From: Acidisarcina polymorpha
Lineage (GTDB): Bacteria > Acidobacteriota > Terriglobia > Terriglobales > Acidobacteriaceae
DNA: 64,000 nucleotides
Assembly (NCBI RefSeq): GCF_003330725.1
Contig: NZ_CP030840.1
Span: 4,650,001 to 4,714,000, forward strand
Direction of reading: 5' to 3'
This document shows positions 1,187-12,449 of this stretch, in pieces. The position numbers and the translations under genes were made by a program. The notes under the pieces are model-generated. The model saw nothing but the letters and a program-made list of their open reading frames with translations. It had not been told where the DNA came from and searched no databases. Position 1 is the stretch's first letter. Each line of letters starts with the position of its first letter.

Positions 1187-4100
1187 TTACTTTGGTGAGG
1201 GATGGGATCCTTGCGTGATGTCGGTTGAATAAGTGCCTGGAGCCAAGCCGATTGCTCCCGGTGTAGTTTGCGATGGATCGCCGGATACAACCGTAGGATC
1301 ATCCCCATCGGTTAGTCCGGTGATCGTGTAAGTGGAGGTAGATGCCGGGGCCAGATACGTGTTGCTCACGTTATTCGCAGAGACCATCAGTGGCGTCGCT
1401 GTTCTCGACGCTGCGGCTGCGGTTCCCGTCGCAGTGAAGCTTGTGCTTAGTTTGGTTCCGGTGACCGTCGCCGTTGCTATCAGGCTTCCTACGGCGGTTG
1501 GTGTCGCGGTCACCGAGGCGATGCCCGAGACAAGTGTGGTCGAGGTTTTGCTGGAGAATTTCATACCGGTAGAGGTGTAGGTGATCGGTACACCCCCTAG
1601 AGGCTGACGAAGGGTTCCCACAACAAGCGATTTCAGCGGGTTAACAAAGGCTGTGCCTTGGGGAGAAGATTGGTAAAGGCCTGAGTAAACCGTGACTGCA
1701 GCTGGTGTATCAATAATCAATACCCCTGGCTCATAAACGACTGTGTAGCTTGCCGGTATCACCAGCGTCCCCTTGCTAGCGGAGATGGAATAGAAGCCAA
1801 CTGGTGACCCCACATGTGCTGTCGCCGTCAAGACCGGTGTGCCGGTGACGGTGTCGCCGTTAACAAGTCCTGTAATGAGGTATTGCGTGAGCGGGAAGGC
1901 CTCGTTCAACTCCCACGCGAACGTCGTGGCAGTCACTTTCAAAGTCACCTTAGTGCCCGTCTCGTTGAAGGTAGCGGGCTTGGTCACGCCGGTGACCTTC
2001 GCCGTCGCGGTGACGCTGCCAACCCCAGCAGCGCTCGCCATGACAGATGCGTATCCGCTGGCATTAGTGAGCACCGTCGAGGAAGCGAATTTGACACCAG
2101 TGCCCGTGAAACTTACAGTCGCATTCGCCACTCCCGCCCCCGAGCTGTCCTGCACGAGCACGCGCAGAGGCGCTGCAAACCCGGCTCCATATGCTGCAGT
2201 TTGGCCCGAGCCGCCCACGTTGGTAATTGTTGTCGCAACATCCGTGCCTGTGCCCTTCAGCCCGATCAAAGTCGTGTCAGGATTGGCGTTGGACGCGAGC
2301 AAGTCGGAGCTGGCCAACGGCCCGGCCAGCGTGGGCTTAAAGCTGAAACTGAGTTCGCAATTGAACCCTGGTTCGAGCCAGAGTACCTCGGTGCAATCTG
2401 TGCCCGACCCTGTATAGGGGACCTGAGCGAAATTCGTACCGTTGGTCAATCCGCCGGCAGCCACCAGTGGAGCATTACCCACATTTGCAATCTGTACCGA
2501 CTTCGGACTATCGGCGCTCGTCGCGCCCACATGTGTCGATGCGAAGCTTAATGTCGGAGCTTGGGTGCGAGTGATTTTCAGGATGCGGCCGTTCCCGGAA
2601 TCCGCCACAAACACGTTGCCGATTGCGTCCAGAGCCACGCCACAGGGATTTAGAATGCCCTTTCCAAGATTCACTTGGGGTCCTCCGTTCACCGGAACTT
2701 CGACCACAGCATTGATATCTGAATCGCCCACGTATGCATTGCCTGCTGCATCCACGGCCAGGCCGCAGGGTTTGATGAAGCCACTGCCGATAACGGTTGA
2801 GACGCCAGTGCTTATCGTCAATTTCCAGACCTTCGGGTTGGTTACACCTGGCCCATCGATGGCATACACATTCCCTTCGCTATCCACGGTAACCGATTGC
2901 GGTGTTGTCCAGTTGCCAGCCACAATCGACGCATAGCCGCTCAGAGGCGCCACCTTGACGACACGATTGTTGTCCGCGTCCGCGATGTAGACATTCCCCG
3001 CATTGTCCAACGCCACGGCAAGCGGATTTGCTAAGTTGTTCCCCAGGTGGAACTGCGTTCCATCGGGCGCCACCTTGACTACCTGGTTGCCATCGGAGTC
3101 TGCGATGTAGACGTTGCCTTGAGCGTCGACTGCCACTGCGACTGGAGTTATCAAAAAGCTACCGATAGCCTTCGAGGGGCCACCGCCTGCTGGGAACTCC
3201 ACAACATTATGCGCCGCTGGGTTTGCGACAAACACGTTGTCTGCGCCATCGACAGCAATTGCCTTGAGACCTTTCCCCATACCAACGGTACTCTGCACCG
3301 CAGAGTTGAAAACGACCTGCGGTCCAACGCCCAAACCGTAGACGTTTGTACTCGACTGCACCTTCCCGCTCGAGTCCAATAGTTGCATCACCGCGCTGCG
3401 CGATCCGCTGTATTTCGGCGAGAAGGTCACGTTGAGTGGACATCCAGACCCGGCGCATGTGTTGCCAGGGTAGTTGGCTACGAAATCCTTATTCGGCACT
3501 CCACCCGACATGAACCGAACACCCGGCGTAATCGCTCCTGGGGTACCTAACCATAGCGTTTGCGTTGCGTTGCACGCGGATACCGAGGTCCAACCCGGAA
3601 CGCAGATCTCCGCCGATCCAAAATTCACGGAGGCTCGCTGAGTCGTTGCCACAAAATAAATTTCATTGCCGCCATCCGTAGCTGCGAACGTTAGATCTCC
3701 CTTCATATCTACCGCGATGCCCTCGGTTGGCACTACTTCAGGACCATAGTAGCCCGGCGAGTTGAGCACACTGTATGCCACGATCGGAGTCGAACTACCT
3801 GCCGGAATCTCGTCAATCTCGTTGCCGTTGTTGTAGAACAGATTTCCGGCTAGGTCGGTCGCAATTCCCCAGGCGGCGCTGAGTCCGGTCACCAGAGTCG
3901 TTTGCGTGGTGCTGTAGGCGGGCAATTCAGTAATCGTGCCTTGGTCCGAGTCCGTGACATACACATTCCCTAAGGGGTCAATCGCAATGCCGCTGGGTGA
4001 GATTAGTCCGTTGAAATTCAATTGAACGCGCGTGCCGCTCCCTCTCCCCACCATGAAAACGCCGGAAGCACCCGTAAAGTTGACGTTTGCCTCCACCACA

Positions 4101-4576
4101 TACACATCCCCAGCGAGGTCAACCGCGATTGCAACAGGGCTTATCCAGCCGGATGCAACAGTGCTCTGCGCGCCGCTTGGCGTCAATCTGATGATCGAAC
4201 TCGTCGACTGCCCGCCATAGCCTACAGAATCATTCGCGATGTAGAGGTTTCCGGCTCCGTCCACTGCGATGCCCAGCGGATTGCTTACGCCCTTCACATT
4301 CACTGGAGCCAACTGGTTGCTGCCTGCGGGAAGCTCCACAACCGAACCCAGGCTGCTATTGGCCAGGAACAGGTTCCCGGCCTGATCGACCGCCATGGAT
4401 TCGAGGGTGGGTTGAGAGGTTTCAGTTGCGGGGAGAATTTGCGCTGAACTAAACGCAAAAGTTGGTGTCTGTGCCGTCAAAGGAGAACTCGCGGCACACA
4501 GCATAATACCGCCCAACATGACAGCTATTTTGTGTGACACCTCAGAGATGCGGCGAAGAGCTGTTTGGAGAGTCAT
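1187..4576 (-). CDS. Secreted NHL-repeat protein with Ig-like and MBG domains
   Basis: Exported protein of 1129 residues, probably surface or periplasmic; no enzymatic function is visible. A signal peptide (hydrophobic stretch near residues 17-35, ending SPLTAQ) is followed by two blocks of NHL-type beta-propeller repeats (recurrent IAVDxxGNxYVAD, about residues 60-330 and 430-690). Next come a choice-of-anchor-D-like domain (FASTHVGATSADSPKSVQIA), Ig-like modules and MBG-type domains (YLITGLVNGDTV and YTITGLTDGDDPT). The last MBG domain is cut short by TAA, although the conserved VNGTLAVT strand continues in the same frame downstream of the stop. First of three large same-strand exported-protein genes. 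Family members are thought to mediate adhesion or extracellular binding; the ligand is unknown. Confidence 0.85.
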   Translation of the reverse strand: MTLQTALRRISEVSHKIAVMLGGIMLCAASSPLTAQTPTFAFSSAQILPATETSQPTLESMAVDQAGNLFLANSSLGSVVELPAGSNQLAPVNVKGVSNPLGIAVDGAGNLYIANDSVGYGGQSTSSIIRLTPSGAQSTVASGWISPVAIAVDLAGDVYVVEANVNFTGASGVFMVGRGSGTRVQLNFNGLISPSGIAIDPLGNVYVTDSDQGTITELPAYSTTQTTLVTGLSAAWGIATDLAGNLFYNNGNEIDEIPAGSSTPIVAYSVLNSPGYYGPEVVPTEGIAVDMKGDLTFAATDGGNEIYFVATTQRASVNFGSAEICVPGWTSVSACNATQTLWLGTPGAITPGVRFMSGGVPNKDFVANYPGNTCAGSGCPLNVTFSPKYSGSRSAVMQLLDSSGKVQSSTNVYGLGVGPQVVFNSAVQSTVGMGKGLKAIAVDGADNVFVANPAAHNVVEFPAGGGPSKAIGSFLITPVAVAVDAQGNVYIADSDGNQVVKVAPDGTQFHLGNNLANPLAVALDNAGNVYIADADNNRVVKVAPLSGYASIVAGNWTTPQSVTVDSEGNVYAIDGPGVTNPKVWKLTISTGVSTVIGSGFIKPCGLAVDAAGNAYVGDSDINAVVEVPVNGGPQVNLGKGILNPCGVALDAIGNVFVADSGNGRILKITRTQAPTLSFASTHVGATSADSPKSVQIANVGNAPLVAAGGLTNGTNFAQVPYTGSGTDCTEVLWLEPGFNCELSFSFKPTLAGPLASSDLLASNANPDTTLIGLKGTGTDVATTITNVGGSGQTAAYGAGFAAPLRVLVQDSSGAGVANATVSFTGTGVKFASSTVLTNASGYASVMASAAGVGSVTATAKVTGVTKPATFNETGTKVTLKVTATTFAWELNEAFPLTQYLITGLVNGDTVTGTPVLTATAHVGSPVGFYSISASKGTLVIPASYTVVYEPGVLIIDTPAAVTVYSGLYQSSPQGTAFVNPLKSLVVGTLRQPLGGVPITYTSTGMKFSSKTSTTLVSGIASVTATPTAVGSLIATATVTGTKLSTSFTATGTAAAASRTATPLMVSANNVSNTYLAPASTSTYTITGLTDGDDPTVVSGDPSQTTPGAIGLAPGTYSTDITQGSHPSPK

Positions 4577-5018: not shown

Positions 5019-8000
5019 CTAATTCACGGTAAGAGAAACCGTCGTCGTCTGTGCGGCGGCCGTACTGCCAGTGGCCGGTGTGGCCGACACGGTAATGGTG
5101 TAGCTGCCTGGGGTCACGGTCAGGGCCGACGAATTCTTGGGATTGCCACCGCCACCGCAACCAGCCATGAAAGCACCGATCCAGAGCAACGCAACGAGCC
5201 CGAGCGCCGACGAGATGTGGAGGCGTCGGCGGCGGAGGAACAAGACGCCGCAGAGGGCTGCTAGGCTTGCTCCGGTAGCGGGAACCTGCCAGGGTGAGGG
5301 AACGCTCTGCAACTCGGCATGCGTTGCGGAGGTTCCAATGAGCAGTGTCGCTACGGATGAACCGCCAGCCGTCAGCATCGCGCTACCCGGGTTAACCGTG
5401 CAAGTGCCGTTCGTTGGCATGCCCGAGCAACTGAGGGTGACCGCTCCGCTGAAGCTCGCGTTGGCCGTGAGATTCAGTGTAACCACGCCCTGCGATCCAC
5501 CCGTGACGGTTACCTTAGCCGGCGTTCCAGTGAGGGTAAAGGCAGGCGGCAGCGCAGCAACCGTGATCGACGACGAGGCCGATGTAACGGGGTTATAGTT
5601 CGTGTCTCCCGCATATACTGCGCTTATGGTATGCGTACCGATGGCCAGCGCAGCCGGCGAGTAGGTCGCCGCACCGGAGCTGAGCGAGGCCGTACCGAGC
5701 AGTGTCGTTCCATCGTAGAACGAGATGGAGCCAGTCGCTGCAGGACGACCTGCCAGGCCCGCCTTGACGGTGGCGGTCAACATGGTCGAATCGCCGAAGT
5801 TGATCAACGACCCCGATGAGGTCAGCGCGAGAGAAGAGCCGCCTTGGCCGATAAAGAGCGCCGGCCCATATCCGGTCTCGGTCATCACGTCCATTGCGTT
5901 GTCGTCGTAGAAGCTTCCCACCAGCGGCAAGGTGCTGCCGAGGGTCTGGAGCTGGTTGTACGGGCCCGTGAACTGGCCATTGCCGAGTCCGATGTAAGTG
6001 ACCATCCCAAAATTTTCTACGGGTTGGCCATCTGTCTCATACAGGCAGGCGACGATGTCGGGAATGCCGTCGTTGTTCATATCGGCTACCTGCATTCCGT
6101 AGAAGAAGTCGCCCATGGTGACCGTGGACGGCAGATTGAAGGTGCCGTCTCCGTTGCCGGTGATGGTCACAATGCCGCCGGTGGTGACGTCACTGCCGGC
6201 AACCTCTTCTGCGCTGAGCACAATGTCGAGCTTGCCGTCTCCGTTGATGTCGGCCGTCGCCACATTGCTGATGACATAGCTGCTCTCGATCACCGAGCTC
6301 TGACCGAAGGTCCCATCTCCGTTCCCGGGAGCATAGGAGAGTTGATATCCGGAGCCGTTGACGAATGGAACATCGTTGATCAGCATGTCGAGCTTGCCAT
6401 CGCCATTGATGTCGGCAAGCGTCAAGCTGTAGAGTTCGGTACCGAATTGCATAAATACGGGCTTGGCGAAGGTACCGTCTCCATTGCCCAGCGCCACCCA
6501 GTATCCTGAAGGGCCGCCGGAGAGAGAGCCGCAGGCTGCATCGCTACCGTATGGGATAACCAGGTCGACTTTGCCATCGCCGTTGATGTCGCCGGCCGCG
6601 CCGTAGTAGACAGGGCAGGCCTCAGTGCCAATGCCGATCGACGCGGGTGTGCCGAAGGTTCCGTCTCCTTTGGAGAGCGCAACCAGAACATCGCCCGTTG
6701 AGGTCGCGTAGGCGAGGTCGGTCAAGCCGTCTCCGTTGAGGTCGGCTTGGATGGGTTGAATATACTGGAGGTCTGAAGGCAGCCCACCGGCAAGCGATTG
6801 CACCGAGGTGAAGTTTCCCTTGCCGTCATTCACTCCGGTATAGAGCTGCGAAATAAAGGTAGTTGAATTCTGGTACAGAAACAGCGGGCTCTGATATCCG
6901 GACTTGGTGTAGTTTCCGCTCGCTACCAGCTCCGTCGAAATTGCCTGCGGATCGTTGTTGGCTGTCACAACCGGCGCTCCGGGAAAGTTCGTGCCGTTGC
7001 CGAAGAACAGCGAGACCTGTACGTAGGTGGCTCCGAGCAACGCGAGATCCTGCTTGCCGTCGCCGTTGAAGTCCCCCGCCAACAGCGAATTGTAGCCGGC
7101 CGGATCGATAACGTATTGGTTGCTGGCAGTCGGCGCGGCGAAGGTTCCGTCGCCGTTGCCGAGCAATATGCCGAGGGTGCCGCCCGCGGTCACGAAGTCC
7201 GGCTTGCCATCGCCGTTCACGTCTAGAATTACCGTCGATGCCGGGCCGACGATCGCGGCGTCTGAACTCGTGACGGGCGCGCCAAAGGTTCCGTCGCCAT
7301 TACCGGGGGCAACATAGAGAGTGCCGTCCAGCTCGGAGAGGACGTCGACCTTGCCATCGCCGTTCACATCCGCCAGAGAGACGCCGCTGCTATTGAAGAA
7401 CGGTCCGAAGGGGCCGGTAAGCGCCGCTGCCGAAATGGCCTGTGTCGCCCCAAAGATCGAAAAGGTTCCATCGCCGTTGCCGAGCACGGTCATCACAACC
7501 AAGTTGCCGGTGCTGCCGGTATTCTCGGGCAGCCCCAGAGCAAGGTCTATCTTGCCGTCGCCATTTATATCTCCCATGGCCATACTCGCCGCCTGAAACA
7601 GCGATACCGAGGCTGGAATTGTGAGCTGCTGCACCTTGGCCGCGGAGGACTGGCCGAAGGTTCCATCTCCTGCGCCCAGCTGCACCTCCAGGGCGATCGT
7701 GGTGCTGGTGTTGGATTGCGCGATCGTGGTGTCGTAGATCAGGTCGGCCTTGCCGTCGCCGTTGACATCGGCTGCATACACCTGGCCGGCATAGCCGTAC
7801 GTCGTATCGAGCAGCGTGGTGACAGCGGCGTTGAACTGGCCGTTGCCAAGATTCAACCAGGTGATCACGGCATTGTTGATGTAGTCGAAGGCCACGATAT
7901 CCACTGCGCCATCGCCGTTCACGTCCACTGCATTCGCATTCAAGACGTTAGTCGTCGCCTGGTTCGGATTGAAGTAGCTCGTTGGAGCGCTCAGATTGCC

Positions 8001-8438
8001 CGCCCCGTCTCCTATCAGGATGTTGAGAGTCCCGTCTTCCTGCATAACGGCGATATCCGGCTTGCCGTCCTTATTGAAGTCGGCTTCCAATTCAACGGTA
8101 ACGCCGGTATCGAAGATGCCGGCGGCCAGCGATGCGGTGTTTCGCGCGGGGAAATTCGGCGCGTTTACGTAACCACCGAAGTTCGGCACCGTGACATCGG
8201 ATGTTGCATTCGGATGGATCGCGTCGACCCGAGAGCCCGAGTTTCCGTGTGCCTTGAGATAGGGGATCATCAACTGGTCTGCCGGTGTCTGGTAGCGCTT
8301 TTGAAGAGCCGTGACCGGAGGGGTCTTGGTCTTCAGCGGCGCCGGCTGCGCTTGCCGCTGAGAGAAGGCGATACTTGAGCAACCGATCGTAATCAACGTA
8401 ACCGCCGTTCGAGCGCCGGCAGGGAGAAATCGCAGCAT
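5019..8438 (-). CDS. Secreted FG-GAP/VCBS-repeat protein with Ig-like C-terminus and membrane hairpin
   Basis: Exported protein of 1139 residues. After an N-terminal signal (TAVTLITIGCSSIAFSQ) there are about a dozen FG-GAP/VCBS repeats with the calcium-binding signature DxNxDGxxD (for example VDVNGDGAVD and ADINGDGKLD), predicted to form a beta-propeller. An Ig-like domain 3 repeat follows (GSISFYDGTTLLGTASL ... VYAGDTNYNP). The C-terminus is unusual: an Ig-like domain whose last strand (GSYTITVSATPA ... TTTVSLTVN) is separated from the rest by two hydrophobic helices flanking RRRR (about 1069-1072) and a lipobox-like GCGGGG (Cys about 1094). The same layout occurs in the sedolisin encoded upstream. 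The function is inferred to be surface binding or adhesion; no enzyme motif is seen. Confidence 0.85.
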   Translation of the reverse strand: MLRFLPAGARTAVTLITIGCSSIAFSQRQAQPAPLKTKTPPVTALQKRYQTPADQLMIPYLKAHGNSGSRVDAIHPNATSDVTVPNFGGYVNAPNFPARNTASLAAGIFDTGVTVELEADFNKDGKPDIAVMQEDGTLNILIGDGAGNLSAPTSYFNPNQATTNVLNANAVDVNGDGAVDIVAFDYINNAVITWLNLGNGQFNAAVTTLLDTTYGYAGQVYAADVNGDGKADLIYDTTIAQSNTSTTIALEVQLGAGDGTFGQSSAAKVQQLTIPASVSLFQAASMAMGDINGDGKIDLALGLPENTGSTGNLVVMTVLGNGDGTFSIFGATQAISAAALTGPFGPFFNSSGVSLADVNGDGKVDVLSELDGTLYVAPGNGDGTFGAPVTSSDAAIVGPASTVILDVNGDGKPDFVTAGGTLGILLGNGDGTFAAPTASNQYVIDPAGYNSLLAGDFNGDGKQDLALLGATYVQVSLFFGNGTNFPGAPVVTANNDPQAISTELVASGNYTKSGYQSPLFLYQNSTTFISQLYTGVNDGKGNFTSVQSLAGGLPSDLQYIQPIQADLNGDGLTDLAYATSTGDVLVALSKGDGTFGTPASIGIGTEACPVYYGAAGDINGDGKVDLVIPYGSDAACGSLSGGPSGYWVALGNGDGTFAKPVFMQFGTELYSLTLADINGDGKLDMLINDVPFVNGSGYQLSYAPGNGDGTFGQSSVIESSYVISNVATADINGDGKLDIVLSAEEVAGSDVTTGGIVTITGNGDGTFNLPSTVTMGDFFYGMQVADMNNDGIPDIVACLYETDGQPVENFGMVTYIGLGNGQFTGPYNQLQTLGSTLPLVGSFYDDNAMDVMTETGYGPALFIGQGGSSLALTSSGSLINFGDSTMLTATVKAGLAGRPAATGSISFYDGTTLLGTASLSSGAATYSPAALAIGTHTISAVYAGDTNYNPVTSASSSITVAALPPAFTLTGTPAKVTVTGGSQGVVTLNLTANASFSGAVTLSCSGMPTNGTCTVNPGSAMLTAGGSSVATLLIGTSATHAELQSVPSPWQVPATGASLAALCGVLFLRRRRLHISSALGLVALLWIGAFMAGCGGGGNPKNSSALTVTPGSYTITVSATPATGSTAAAQTTTVSLTVN

Positions 8439-8498
8439 GGAAAAGCCTCCTCAAACTTTCTTAGAACACTGCCAAATCGCAGAATTTCTTGGGTTGCG

Positions 8499-8530
8499 CC
8501 GCGAACCGAACGTGTGGCTTCGGTCCGCGG
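8499..8530 (-). terminator. Strong hairpin between the sedolisin and FG-GAP genes
   Basis: Arms CCGCGAACCGAA (8499-8510) and TTCGGTCCGCGG (8519-8530) pair over 12 bp with one G-U pair. The hairpin starts 17 bases after the sedolisin stop codon. No U-tract follows, so it may attenuate or stabilise the transcript rather than act as a complete intrinsic terminator. Confidence 0.5.
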
Positions 8531-8546
8531 GTCTACGGGAAATCCT

Positions 8547-11500
8547 CTAGTTCACAGTCACGTTCACGGTCGCGGTTTGCGCGCTGGCTCCAGCCGGAGT
8601 CGCGGTTACGGTAACGACATAGGCTCCCGCAGTGGTGCCGGTCGACGTTGAAGGAGGGGTGCCCGATGAAGCCGAGGAACCGCCGCATGCCACCATGCCG
8701 CCCAGAGCGATCAGAGCGATCAGCGAAAGGAAACCCCGAAGCTGACGACGCCGAACGGTTGGAACCAGGAAGAACAGCATTCCCGCCAGCGCTGTCCCGC
8801 CAATGGCGCGAAGCGGAATCGCTCCGATTGTGACAGGAGTTCCAGCCGTCGAGCTGATCGTCAGGGTTGCCGTCGCCGCCGTCGCGCCGCTGATTGTCGC
8901 CAAACTCGGCGATACCGCGCAGGTGATCGGCTGCTTTGCCGCAGCCGGGGACGTGGTGACGGCGCAGGAGAAGCTTACGGCGCCTGTGAATCCGTCAACA
9001 GGAGTCACCGAGAGTGCTGAACTGTTACCGGTCGTCGCCCCACGAGCGATCGTGATCGCCCCGCTGTTGGTCAGCGTGATGGCTGGAGTCCCGGTGACGA
9101 CGACCGTGCTGGTCGTCGAGGCCGTGACCATGCCGGTAGCGGCATCCTTACCCGATATCGTAACGACATAAGTTCCCGTCGTGGTGCCTGCGGAGGAGTT
9201 GACGGTCAGGGTTGCCGTTGCCGGGGCAGTTCCAGACAGATCGATCGACGCGGGGATGCCGCAGGTGATCGGGCTGATGGCATTGGCCGGCGCAGAGGTG
9301 ACAGCACAGCTCAGATTGACTGGGCCGGCAAATCCCCCGGCTGAGCTGACGGTCACCTTTGCCGTGTTGTCGGTGGTGCTGCCAGCGCTGACATCGATCG
9401 CTTCCGTCTGCAGCGAGATGGCCGCCTCAGTGACGGTGACGGTTGTCGCGCCAGTCGAACCGGAGTAGTTCGAATCGCCGCTGTAGGTTGCGGTAATCGT
9501 GTTCACCCCGTTGGCCAGATGCGACCCGAGGACGTTGAAGATCGCGTAGGAAAGCGAAGTTCCGTTCTGGACGCTCTCCGCGCTCGTGAGGTTCGAGGAG
9601 GTCCCGAGCGTTACGCCATTGGCGCTGAGGGTGATGGTACCGGTGGGCGCTAGCGCGAGGCTGGATGTTGTGATGTCCACTTCGATCTTGTCGCTGGTGT
9701 TTGAGACGAGCACTGCTGTTGCCGGGAAGAGAGCCGATGACGTTGCGCCCTTGACAACCGTGAAGCTCACCGCGTTGGAAGTGTTTGGCTTGTAGCTCGA
9801 GTCGCCTGGATAGGTCGCCGTCACGCTATGCGCGCCGACAGCGTAAGGATAGACAGTGGCGCCGACTGGCGGAAACGAGGCGTAGTTGCCGCTGGTGATC
9901 GGCGAGGTGCCGGCGATTGTTCCGTTATCCAGGTTGGTCATCGTTCCGGTGGCGAAACCCTGGGAGCCGGCATAACCCTCCGCCGTTCCATAGACCGACG
10001 TGTCGGCGAAGATATACGAGCCGTACGGGATCGCATTGAGGCTCGCCAGCGGCGTCCCGGCGAGGTTGTAGGCGTTCACTGAGAGCTGGGTCGAACTGGC
10101 CTCGGCAGAGATGTTTACGCTGATTGCGTTGGACTGGCTAGCAGCGGTCTTCGTGTCTCCGCCATAGTTGGCATAGACGGTATAGACGCCGCCGGGCAGG
10201 CCGTTGTAGCCGGTATTGCCCGTACCATCGCTGATCGCGATGGTGGCTGGCTGGCCATTGAGGGTGGGCGCGCCGGCTGCGGCCGTCGCGGTCGTCACCA
10301 GACCCGCCGCGCCTGTGGCGGTCGATGGAGTCACGTTTACGCCAAAATTCAGGGTTGTGCCATGAACCGCGGTGACAGGCGAGGTCGAGCCATTGATGGT
10401 CAGCCCGGTGGTCGAACTTGCGCCGACGGCGCTGGTCCAGTTGGCCAGCATGGCGGCGGCATCCACGCTGCCGAGGCCTGAGGCCTGGTCATACCCCGTC
10501 CCGGCGTTGTAGCCGGTCATGAAGCCGTTGCCGCCGCAGTTCTGGGTTCCGGAGGTACAGACGACTGCATTGTTTCCGGTGGTGACGTCATGGAAGACCG
10601 TGCTGTATTTATTTGCCGCCAGCGTGTAGAGGACATTGTTGACGTTGCCCAGGCGCGACCCGGTTGCCTGCACCACCAGCGCCAGCATCCCGGCGAAGGC
10701 CGGTGTCGCGGCCGATGTGCCGCCCGCCCCGTCAAACCGGGTGCTGGACGTAAACGCGCCGTTGTTGGTGACGCAGTCCGGACCGTAAATCGCGCTTGTT
10801 TCGCAGAGGACCCACACCGCGCCATAGAGGCCATTGGCGGCCAAGAGCGATACGTCGGGCAGATCGCGGGCATTATCGGCGGGTGTAAGCGCGTTCTGAT
10901 AGGCCGGCTTCGGGAATACGCTGCTCGCGCCGCCGCCGCCGCCGATGATGTTTGTGCTTCCGTTGGAAAGCAGGGATTGATTGTCGGCTAGGTTGCCGTT
11001 CACGCTGGTCGAGTCGTTCCACGGTTCTTCAGGAATATAGGAGAGCGCGGTCGCATAGTAAGGCGGATTGCCGGTGCTCCCGGTCTCCACATAGGTCGAG
11101 AACGCCGTCCCAAGAACATCGTAGTCGGTGCCGCCCACCGAAACGTTGTTCGGCGAAGAACCCAGTCCATTGACCCCCAGCCCGTTGATTGCGGTTGTTT
11201 CACTGTTTTGGTTGTCGCAAGCGGCGGATCCGGCGTCGCCGGAGGAGACCGTCACCGTGATGCCCTGCGCCGCGGCCTGCTGGAAGAGTTCTCCTATGAA
11301 GTCGGTGGTTTCCGTTCCGGCCAGCGCCTCGCACTCGCCGAAGCTGATGCTTAGTACGCTTACGGCATTGTCGTTGACGGCGCGAATCATCGCATTGAAC
11401 AGACCGGCGGAGATGTCGCTGTCGGCGCTGGTGTAATAGTTGATCTTCGCCTTGGGCGCGATGCCGCCCAGCACTTCAAGATCGAGCCAGGTTTCCACCT

Positions 11501-12449
11501 CATCGCCGTTGAGTCCCGGGTCGTCGCCGTCGACAATCACCGTCGGCAAATTGACGGTGGCGGTCGTCTCGCCTAGAAAGGCCGTGCGATAGTTCGTGAC
11601 CGGGGTGAGGTCGACATTCGAGTCGCCAACCACGCCGACAGTCACGCCGGTGCCGTCATAGGTCCTTCCCTTATAGCTAGTGTTGAGGTTGGCATTGGGC
11701 GTGTCGTAGATCGTGGCCGCATCCGCCGGATCCACATAGAGATACGGATTGCCCACCGAGTCGAACAGCGTGAGCTCCGGCTCTATCCGGCGAGTTAAAG
11801 AGTTATATTTCGCCGCAGGACCGATTTGAAGGTTGGAGCGGGGATGGATGTCATCCAGCCCCACCACGGTCTTTACCGCCGCCGCGAAGGCTCGTGGAAT
11901 CTGGGGCGCTGTGGTGTTGGCGATATGCTTTTGGCCGCCGATCGAAATCGAACGGATTGAAGTCGAGAATGCCGTTTCAAGCTGGCCCACCGAACCCGAA
12001 AAGGTGATGAGATTGGCTGCGGGCGATGTCTTTTCGATCGTCAGGCCTTCGGATTCAAGCCACGCTGTGATGGTCTGCACGTCCTCGGCCGCGGCGCCGA
12101 ACCGAGACCCGTATTCTGCCGGAGTGAGCCAGTGATGATATGCGGCGGAATGCGGGTTCTGAACATCGCTCAAGTACTGAGTGAGCGACGCCTGCCGCAT
12201 CCCCGGGCGCTGCAGCACCATGGTGACGTGATGTGCTGGGAGCGCAAGGTCGGCGGCGCCAAGGTCGACGGCCCGCTCGACCGCACTGCGCACGCTGCCG
12301 CTCAGCGGAACTCGGTCGGAGTTGTTTACCGTAGTCGTGATGAGGCGGGGAGCCGGGCTACCCTGCCCAACAGCGCACATGGGTTGGATAAGGCCCGCCA
12401 GGAATGCTGCTCCAGCGCAAAGAATACGGTACCGGGAATTTCGAATCAT
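8547..12449 (-). CDS. Sedolisin-family (S53) serine-carboxyl protease with Ig-like repeats
   Basis: Secreted endopeptidase of 1300 residues, expected to act at acidic pH outside the cell. Order: signal peptide (about 1-29), pro-kumamolisin activation domain (about 45-200, with HHWLTPAEYGSRFG), then the S53 catalytic domain. Catalytic residues visible are Glu319 and Asp323 in VETWLDLEV, the oxyanion Asp405 in SSGDAG and Ser579 in GGTSAATP. The C-terminal part of that domain carries the DVTTGNN...GTGYDQASGLG region typical of the calcium site. Several Ig-like repeats follow (VYANYGGDTKTAASQS, ATYPGDSSYKPNTS, ATYSGDSNYSGSTG). The extreme C-terminus holds two hydrophobic helices around VRRRQLR (about 1232), ACGG (Cys1255) and a final Ig-like strand, like the FG-GAP neighbour. 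Divergent from the CadC-like regulator, which may control it (inference). Confidence 0.93.
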   Translation of the reverse strand: MIRNSRYRILCAGAAFLAGLIQPMCAVGQGSPAPRLITTTVNNSDRVPLSGSVRSAVERAVDLGAADLALPAHHVTMVLQRPGMRQASLTQYLSDVQNPHSAAYHHWLTPAEYGSRFGAAAEDVQTITAWLESEGLTIEKTSPAANLITFSGSVGQLETAFSTSIRSISIGGQKHIANTTAPQIPRAFAAAVKTVVGLDDIHPRSNLQIGPAAKYNSLTRRIEPELTLFDSVGNPYLYVDPADAATIYDTPNANLNTSYKGRTYDGTGVTVGVVGDSNVDLTPVTNYRTAFLGETTATVNLPTVIVDGDDPGLNGDEVETWLDLEVLGGIAPKAKINYYTSADSDISAGLFNAMIRAVNDNAVSVLSISFGECEALAGTETTDFIGELFQQAAAQGITVTVSSGDAGSAACDNQNSETTAINGLGVNGLGSSPNNVSVGGTDYDVLGTAFSTYVETGSTGNPPYYATALSYIPEEPWNDSTSVNGNLADNQSLLSNGSTNIIGGGGGASSVFPKPAYQNALTPADNARDLPDVSLLAANGLYGAVWVLCETSAIYGPDCVTNNGAFTSSTRFDGAGGTSAATPAFAGMLALVVQATGSRLGNVNNVLYTLAANKYSTVFHDVTTGNNAVVCTSGTQNCGGNGFMTGYNAGTGYDQASGLGSVDAAAMLANWTSAVGASSTTGLTINGSTSPVTAVHGTTLNFGVNVTPSTATGAAGLVTTATAAAGAPTLNGQPATIAISDGTGNTGYNGLPGGVYTVYANYGGDTKTAASQSNAISVNISAEASSTQLSVNAYNLAGTPLASLNAIPYGSYIFADTSVYGTAEGYAGSQGFATGTMTNLDNGTIAGTSPITSGNYASFPPVGATVYPYAVGAHSVTATYPGDSSYKPNTSNAVSFTVVKGATSSALFPATAVLVSNTSDKIEVDITTSSLALAPTGTITLSANGVTLGTSSNLTSAESVQNGTSLSYAIFNVLGSHLANGVNTITATYSGDSNYSGSTGATTVTVTEAAISLQTEAIDVSAGSTTDNTAKVTVSSAGGFAGPVNLSCAVTSAPANAISPITCGIPASIDLSGTAPATATLTVNSSAGTTTGTYVVTISGKDAATGMVTASTTSTVVVTGTPAITLTNSGAITIARGATTGNSSALSVTPVDGFTGAVSFSCAVTTSPAAAKQPITCAVSPSLATISGATAATATLTISSTAGTPVTIGAIPLRAIGGTALAGMLFFLVPTVRRRQLRGFLSLIALIALGGMVACGGSSASSGTPPSTSTGTTAGAYVVTVTATPAGASAQTATVNVTVN

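Follow-up and report, generated by a model that had tools for sequence, protein, structure and literature searches.

What could a C-terminal domain do that two exported proteins with different main domains have in common, and that in both of them seems to be interrupted by a membrane hairpin and a cysteine (Cys)? This question is raised by a stretch of 64,000 nucleotides from Acidisarcina polymorpha (contig NZ_CP030840.1, positions 4,650,001 to 4,714,000), referred to here as the window and numbered from its first letter, in which an FG-GAP repeat protein (P0001) and a sedolisin/kumamolisin-type protease (P0002) carry such a tail. The tail is real and recurrent and has already been named by NCBI, and P0001 and P0002 are added members. 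Our addition is evidence, well supported by sequence comparison and structure prediction, that the hairpin splits one immunoglobulin-like (Ig-like) domain. Furthermore, we propose, with a confidence somewhat above even, that the tail is a 'lipo-invert' C-terminal envelope anchor, whose second helix would serve as an internal lipoprotein signal. The two genes (5019-8438 and 8547-12449, including their stop codons) are neighbours on the minus strand, and the parts of their products that matter here are the following.

5022-8438, minus strand: FG-GAP repeat exported protein P0001, 1139 amino acids (Pfam FG-GAP_3, FG-GAP and Big_3_5; stop codon at 5019-5021)
5334-5540, minus strand: N-part of the split Ig-like domain of P0001, residues 967-1035, seven predicted strands (AlphaFold2 model and profile test)
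5160-5276, minus strand: hydrophobic hairpin of P0001 with the RRRR loop, residues 1055-1093 (sequence and AlphaFold2 model)
5157-5159, minus strand: Cys1094 of P0001, lipobox-like (MAGCGGGG; from the sequence)
5025-5108, minus strand: C-part of the Ig-like domain of P0001, last two predicted strands, residues 1111-1138 (blocks of predicted local distance difference test, pLDDT, at 95-97; profile test)
8550-12449, minus strand: sedolisin/kumamolisin-type exported protease P0002, 1300 amino acids (Pfam Pro-kuma_activ and Big_3_5; stop codon at 8547-8549)
9090-9428, minus strand: intact Ig-like repeat of P0002 directly before the split one, residues 1008-1120, which marks the insertion point
8853-9080, minus strand: N-part of the split Ig-like domain of P0002, residues 1124-1199, seven predicted strands (AlphaFold2 model and profile test)
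8691-8801, minus strand: hydrophobic hairpin of P0002 with the RRRQLR loop, residues 1217-1253 (sequence and AlphaFold2 model)
8685-8687, minus strand: Cys1255 of P0002, lipobox-like (MVACGG; from the sequence)
8553-8627, minus strand: C-part of the Ig-like domain of P0002, last two predicted strands, residues 1275-1299 (pLDDT blocks at 91-93; profile test)

In both proteins the tail runs in the same order, with seven Ig-like strands, a hydrophobic helix, an arginine (Arg) loop, a second helix, Gly or Ala followed by Cys, a linker and the last two Ig-like strands. In each case the Cys is found 45 residues before the C-terminus (1094 of 1139 and 1255 of 1300), and thus not in the position of an N-terminal signal. 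A first reading of the DNA, made from the letters alone (the sequence-only reading), had pointed to this shared C-terminus, and the motifs which it quoted (RRRR and VRRRQLR, GCGGGG and ACGG, GSYTITVSATPA and GAYVVTVTATPA ... TVN) are all found in the open reading frames. Since the second gene spans 8547-12449, the range that it gave, 5019-8750, takes in only the tail of the sedolisin.

The shared C-terminus itself is confirmed by a curated model, NCBIfam NF058595.1 ('invert_tail', described as 'lipo-invert putative C-terminal anchoring domain'), which scores P0001 at 48.7 bits and P0002 at 50.8 bits, both above its cut-off of 37 bits; the tail is therefore already catalogued. The matches extend to the C-terminus (residues 1030-1139 of 1139 and 1192-1300 of 1300) and cover the 113 positions of the model nearly whole (3-113 and 1-113, respectively). 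In addition, all 47 members of a tail alignment match NF058595 at E<=0.001. The earlier statement that such tails have no formal description thus needs to be corrected with regard to the model, but holds for the literature as far as titles and partial texts go, in which searches by the NF058595 name or accession and broader searches found no paper on the tail.

Whether the strands on the two sides of the hairpin belong to one domain was addressed with profiles of uninterrupted domains, one made from three domains and one from two domains of the A. polymorpha genome whose proteins have no complete tail. These were run against 154 distinct tails (11 from the A. polymorpha genome, 100 fetched from a phylum sample and 45 from a pattern scan, minus two duplicates), which had been gathered with profiles including the Cys column or with the pattern TPAGTY. 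At an independent E-value (iE) of 0.01 or less, the N-parts of 94 and 113 of the 154 tails were matched by the three-domain and the two-domain profile, respectively, over profile positions 1 to about 73, while the C-parts were matched in 125 and 92 tails over positions from about 69 to 98-99, and the middle, with the hairpin, gave no match to either profile in any tail (0/154). Controls at the same threshold gave 0-1 of 154 for shuffled parts and for reversed N-parts, and 12-13 for reversed C-parts. The possibility that some tails have no N-part was considered and rejected: 16 of 154 N-parts were unmatched by the two-domain profile at iE<=1, and all 16 show like strands by eye. As a separate observation, the 87 residues before helix 1 contain exactly two Cys in 127 of the 154 tails, possibly forming a disulphide.

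Structure prediction points in the same direction. AlphaFold2, run on alignments of 47 tails, gave models with a mean pLDDT of 79.6 and a predicted template modelling score (pTM) of 0.65 for P0002 (m5ab9f9614adf) and of 84.5 and 0.66 for P0001 (mb1e579da8884); the strands that follow the Cys fall within the final three ten-residue blocks, whose mean pLDDT is 91-93 and 95-97, respectively. Both models find their best structural counterpart in one Ig-like domain of the Micromonospora viridifaciens sialidase (PDB 2ber, residues ~403-502), with Z 12.6, a root-mean-square deviation (rmsd) of 2.0 Å over 99 residues in one alignment and Z 13.2, rmsd 1.8 Å over 98 residues in the other. As these alignments reach model residue 180 and the N-part accounts for about 80 residues, strands from both sides of the hairpin are included, an argument at the level of the alignments, the coordinates having been compared as a whole and not strand by strand. 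The sialidase domain is an unbroken stretch of about 100 residues, whereas in the tail about 75 residues, including the hairpin, precede the last two strands. Many lower-ranked matches are presumably Ig-like too, and the fold is therefore common, so that the weight lies in one domain spanning both sides of the hairpin. Foldseek alone, which was run for the first model, returned no match at E<=0.001.

It is thus well supported by profiles and models that the strands on both sides of the hairpin form one complete Ig-like sandwich, as predicted, and the sequence-only reading is borne out in its central claim that a membrane hairpin and a Cys interrupt such a sandwich. Its 'missing last Ig strand' after the Cys is indeed Ig-like, but two strands are predicted there instead of a single one (for P0001, model residues 152-162 and 171-179; for P0002, 155-165 and 171-179). 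An absence of homologues and a position of the helices outside the Ig fold, which it had named as outcomes that would speak against it, were both looked for, and neither was seen. It had also suggested that the Ig-like domain becomes complete only on membrane insertion or cleavage at the Cys. In the version considered here, the domain could not close until the tail had passed through the membrane, and folding or activity would thereby be coupled to correct insertion. Such an assembly gate would fit the last two strands, predicted to be part of the same domain as the earlier ones, and the at least 34 residues that follow the Cys in each of the 154 tails; however, nothing seen ties the head domains to the Ig-like domain, and proteases, oxidases and propellers would be expected to fold alone, and we regard this explanation as very unlikely.

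The loop of the hairpin has at least three Lys or Arg in 153 of 154 tails and no Asp or Glu in 147, and the two hydrophobic stretches have mean hydropathies of 2.07 and 2.44 (111 tails). Positively charged loops stay in the cytoplasm (the positive-inside rule); both ends of the hairpin would therefore face outward and helix 2 would be oriented like a lipoprotein signal. A Cys near helix 2, taken as the last one irrespective of its neighbours, is present in 154/154 tails. Once L127, L150 and L169 are re-set to an earlier GC, their true site, it is directly preceded by Gly, Ala or Ser in 153 (the exception, L231, has Asn), as compared with a share of about 34% for these residues further back in helix 2 (111 tails). 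A small residue before the Cys at the outer end of a helix with its N-terminus inside, an orientation read from the loop, is thus found in 153 of 154 tails. With the same three corrections, Gly or Ser comes directly after the Cys in 141 of 154 tails, and the Cys is preceded by 14-23 uncharged residues (median 19). The 34-55 residues that follow (median 42.5, 154 tails) begin with a linker made mostly of Gly, Ser and Thr.

On this basis, a sequence of events can be proposed. The N-terminal signal would export the protein, and helix 1 would then stop the transfer, with the Arg loop remaining cytoplasmic. Helix 2 would return to the outer face like an internal lipoprotein signal peptide, with the Arg residues as its n-region followed by a hydrophobic core, a small residue and the Cys. 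The latter would come out of the inner membrane on its outer side, Lgt would attach a lipid there, and LspA may cut before the Cys after this attachment. The last two strands would fold back onto the earlier seven and close the Ig-like domain, which would therefore sit directly on the membrane. The individual parts of this proposal differ in strength: the topology and the retention in the envelope are very probable, lipidation of the Cys by Lgt is somewhat favoured, and cleavage by LspA is conceivable but rather doubtful, and the protein may later move to the outer membrane. Attaching a lipid by way of an internal lipoprotein signal set within a folded domain would, if true, be unusual.

With regard to the enzymes, the A. 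polymorpha genome encodes two homologues of Lgt and one of LspA. The two Lgt homologues have diverged (G000:C1:5534575-5535255, plus strand, L175; 5382909-5383658, minus strand, L176). Of the 26 genomes sampled from the window's family, 23 have at least two Lgt matches, and in 20 even the top match has an E-value of just 1e-32 to 1e-43; most other families of the phylum have stronger best matches. A dedicated second Lgt as a requirement was considered and dropped: genomes G023, G121 and G210 have one Lgt match and yet carry 12, 12 and 8 tail matches, respectively.

Several observations speak against the lipoprotein reading or against the split domain on which it builds. The usual lipoprotein signal is N-terminal. 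No precedent for an internal one was found among the papers listed, as judged by titles and the openings of abstracts. The strict lipobox, [LVI][ASTVI][GAS]C, occurs in only 41 of 154 tails, with both window tails (MAGC and MVAC) outside it, and position -3 is occupied by Leu in 47 and by Gln in 21 of the 154. As the tails were collected via the Cys column or TPAGTY, the invariance of the Cys is partly a matter of selection. With regard to the split domain, the hairpin blocks of both models reach a pLDDT of only 59-81, and at iE<=1 shuffled and reversed C-parts also match (54-55 and 137-139 of 154, respectively), which means that part of the C-part signal is composition and that iE<=0.01 is the threshold to read.

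The looseness at -3 can be compared with YfiO/BamD-type proteins of the window's family, in which a recognisable box was found in 18 of 29 loci (among L263-L291), by means of a filter that on its own selects for small or hydrophobic residues ahead of the Cys, which is a further point against. In these 18 boxes, position -3 is Ala or Thr in 12 and Leu in one, the only instance of Leu, Val or Ile; position -1 is Ala or Gly in all, and Gln at -3 is absent. Since these boxes are loose at -3, a loose -3 in the tail is by itself no argument against a lipoprotein signal here, and tools trained on Leu-rich boxes may therefore miss lipoproteins in this family. OEP proteins were also tried as a lipobox control and dropped, as a candidate box was seen in 4 of 29 loci and none was convincing.

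These comparisons bear on a plain alternative, in which nothing but the hairpin keeps the protein in the inner membrane, with the Ig-like domain closed around it and the Cys free of lipid. Two strongly hydrophobic stretches around a positive loop could indeed anchor a protein without further modification, and position -3 of the box is loose, with Gln in 21 of 154 tails. However, a Cys in every tail and a small residue before it in all but one, against about a third further back, would be left unexplained, as would the likeness to the YfiO/BamD-type boxes of the family, and we consider a plain two-helix anchor to be rather unlikely.

The lipoprotein reading has a further variant. If LspA cut before the Cys, a lipopeptide of ~35-56 residues would be left, whose two strands would still be bound in the Ig-like domain, and the protein would then be tied to its lipid noncovalently, by strand pairing alone. 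Were the hairpin also cut or extracted, the protein might travel with the lipopeptide to the outer membrane. Such a two-chain anchor would explain why the hairpin lies inside the domain and not after it, but we think it unlikely. A separate small gene for helix 2, the Cys and the last strands was considered and is not supported: two frames of 88 amino acids were seen in genome G276, one of which (L329) is interrupted by a stretch of N, while the other (L330), an incompletely explained fragment, lacks an N-part within 1200 bases upstream on the same strand. In the same genome, a 275-residue frame (L331, G276:C337:9900-15000, match 2951-3139) has a whole tail and otherwise looks intact by eye, and its interhelix loop seems to hold an in-frame insertion of ~40 residues resembling a dispersed repeat.

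Similar tails, which the sequence-only reading had mentioned for other proteins of Terriglobia, are indeed widespread in the window's family. The A. polymorpha genome has nine matches over the NF058595 cut-off, and two more complete tails stay under it, at 30.6 and 24.8 bits. In a phylum sample, 30 of 247 genomes have a match over the cut-off, among them every one of the 26 genomes sampled from the window's family, with 5 to 17 matches each (17 being the number scored); the other four include G216. From at least 150 matches in this sample, tails were taken from the first 115 listed, of which 100 were fetched (left out were six from the A. polymorpha genome, five from G163, which look like copies of those in G094, and four others), and all 100 were recovered as C-terminal tails. 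A pattern scan of wider genome contigs found 46 loci, of which 45 are C-terminal tails and the remaining one is from Actinacidiphila (L253); 43 of the 46 are labelled Acidobacteria or groups within. Two other tails come from metagenome-assembled genomes labelled Gammaproteobacteria (L229, fen_1219) and Candidatus Aminicenantes (L240, Chersky_507), with one match per genome, and may reflect binning errors or transfer.

In the A. polymorpha genome, the heads that bear the tail comprise kumamolisin-type proteases (P0002, L255, L258 and L259), multicopper oxidases (L254 and L257), FG-GAP proteins (P0001, and L256 via a match below the Pfam cut-off), an NHL-like protein (L262, TEN_NHL) and an ASH/Cep192-like protein (L261), whereas in L260 an Ig repeat is the only recognised part besides the tail. 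Given 5-17 matches per family genome, and tails that in the A. polymorpha genome are borne by proteases, oxidases and propeller-like proteins, it may be this tail that determines the location of a large share of the exported degradative machinery. A neighbour of the two tail genes in the window, a gene for an NHL-like protein recognised by eye (1187-4576, minus strand), has no tail at its C-terminus. Beyond the stop, the last of its MBG-like repeats seems to continue in frame for a few residues, and the C-terminal end may therefore be degraded. A Ser/Thr kinase-like frame comes after this gene.

Among known systems, MYXO-CTERM is a short C-terminal tag that combines a Cys with a helix and an Arg cluster; it is found on many exported proteins and is processed by myxosortase, with lipidation predicted at the Cys (PMC11980579). 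An invariant Cys, a hydrophobic helix, an Arg cluster, the C-terminal location and the presence on many exported proteins are common to both. However, MYXO-CTERM has the order Cys, helix and Arg at the very end, whereas the tail has the order helix, Arg loop, helix, Cys and two Ig-like strands, and an NCBIfam scan listed no MYXO-CTERM model for P0001 or P0002 at E<=1. The parallel nevertheless suggests an alternative, namely that a dedicated myxosortase-like membrane protease reads the Cys region and releases the protein or hands it to the surface; MYXO-CTERM proteins are processed in this way, and cleavage of TraA needs the Cys residues (PMC11980579). Against this stand the reversed order of helix and Arg cluster relative to the Cys, the lack of a candidate enzyme in a search limited to Lgt and LspA, a second Lgt that is not needed, and prolines of helix 1 without a fixed position, and a cleaved sorting signal is accordingly judged quite improbable. 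A fixed cut site within helix 1 was likewise rejected, as Pro occurs in or near this helix in 144 of 154 tails at scattered positions.

The preferred reading, an internal lipoprotein signal, has its closest counterpart in the signal peptides of Lgt and LspA substrates, which share with the tail a positive region, a hydrophobic stretch, a small residue, a Cys and a linker. These signal peptides are N-terminal, whereas the signal of the tail would be internal near the C-terminus, with both a large exported protein and an initial membrane helix ahead of it. NF058595, compared by its name and description line, has the same order as the window tails (strand, helix, Arg loop, helix, Cys, linker and strands), but its match sets in around the final strand ahead of the hairpin and omits most of the N-part. 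Lipid anchoring at the Cys, which the sequence-only reading had suggested and with which the findings are consistent, is also the guess expressed in the name of the NCBI model, which itself says 'putative'.

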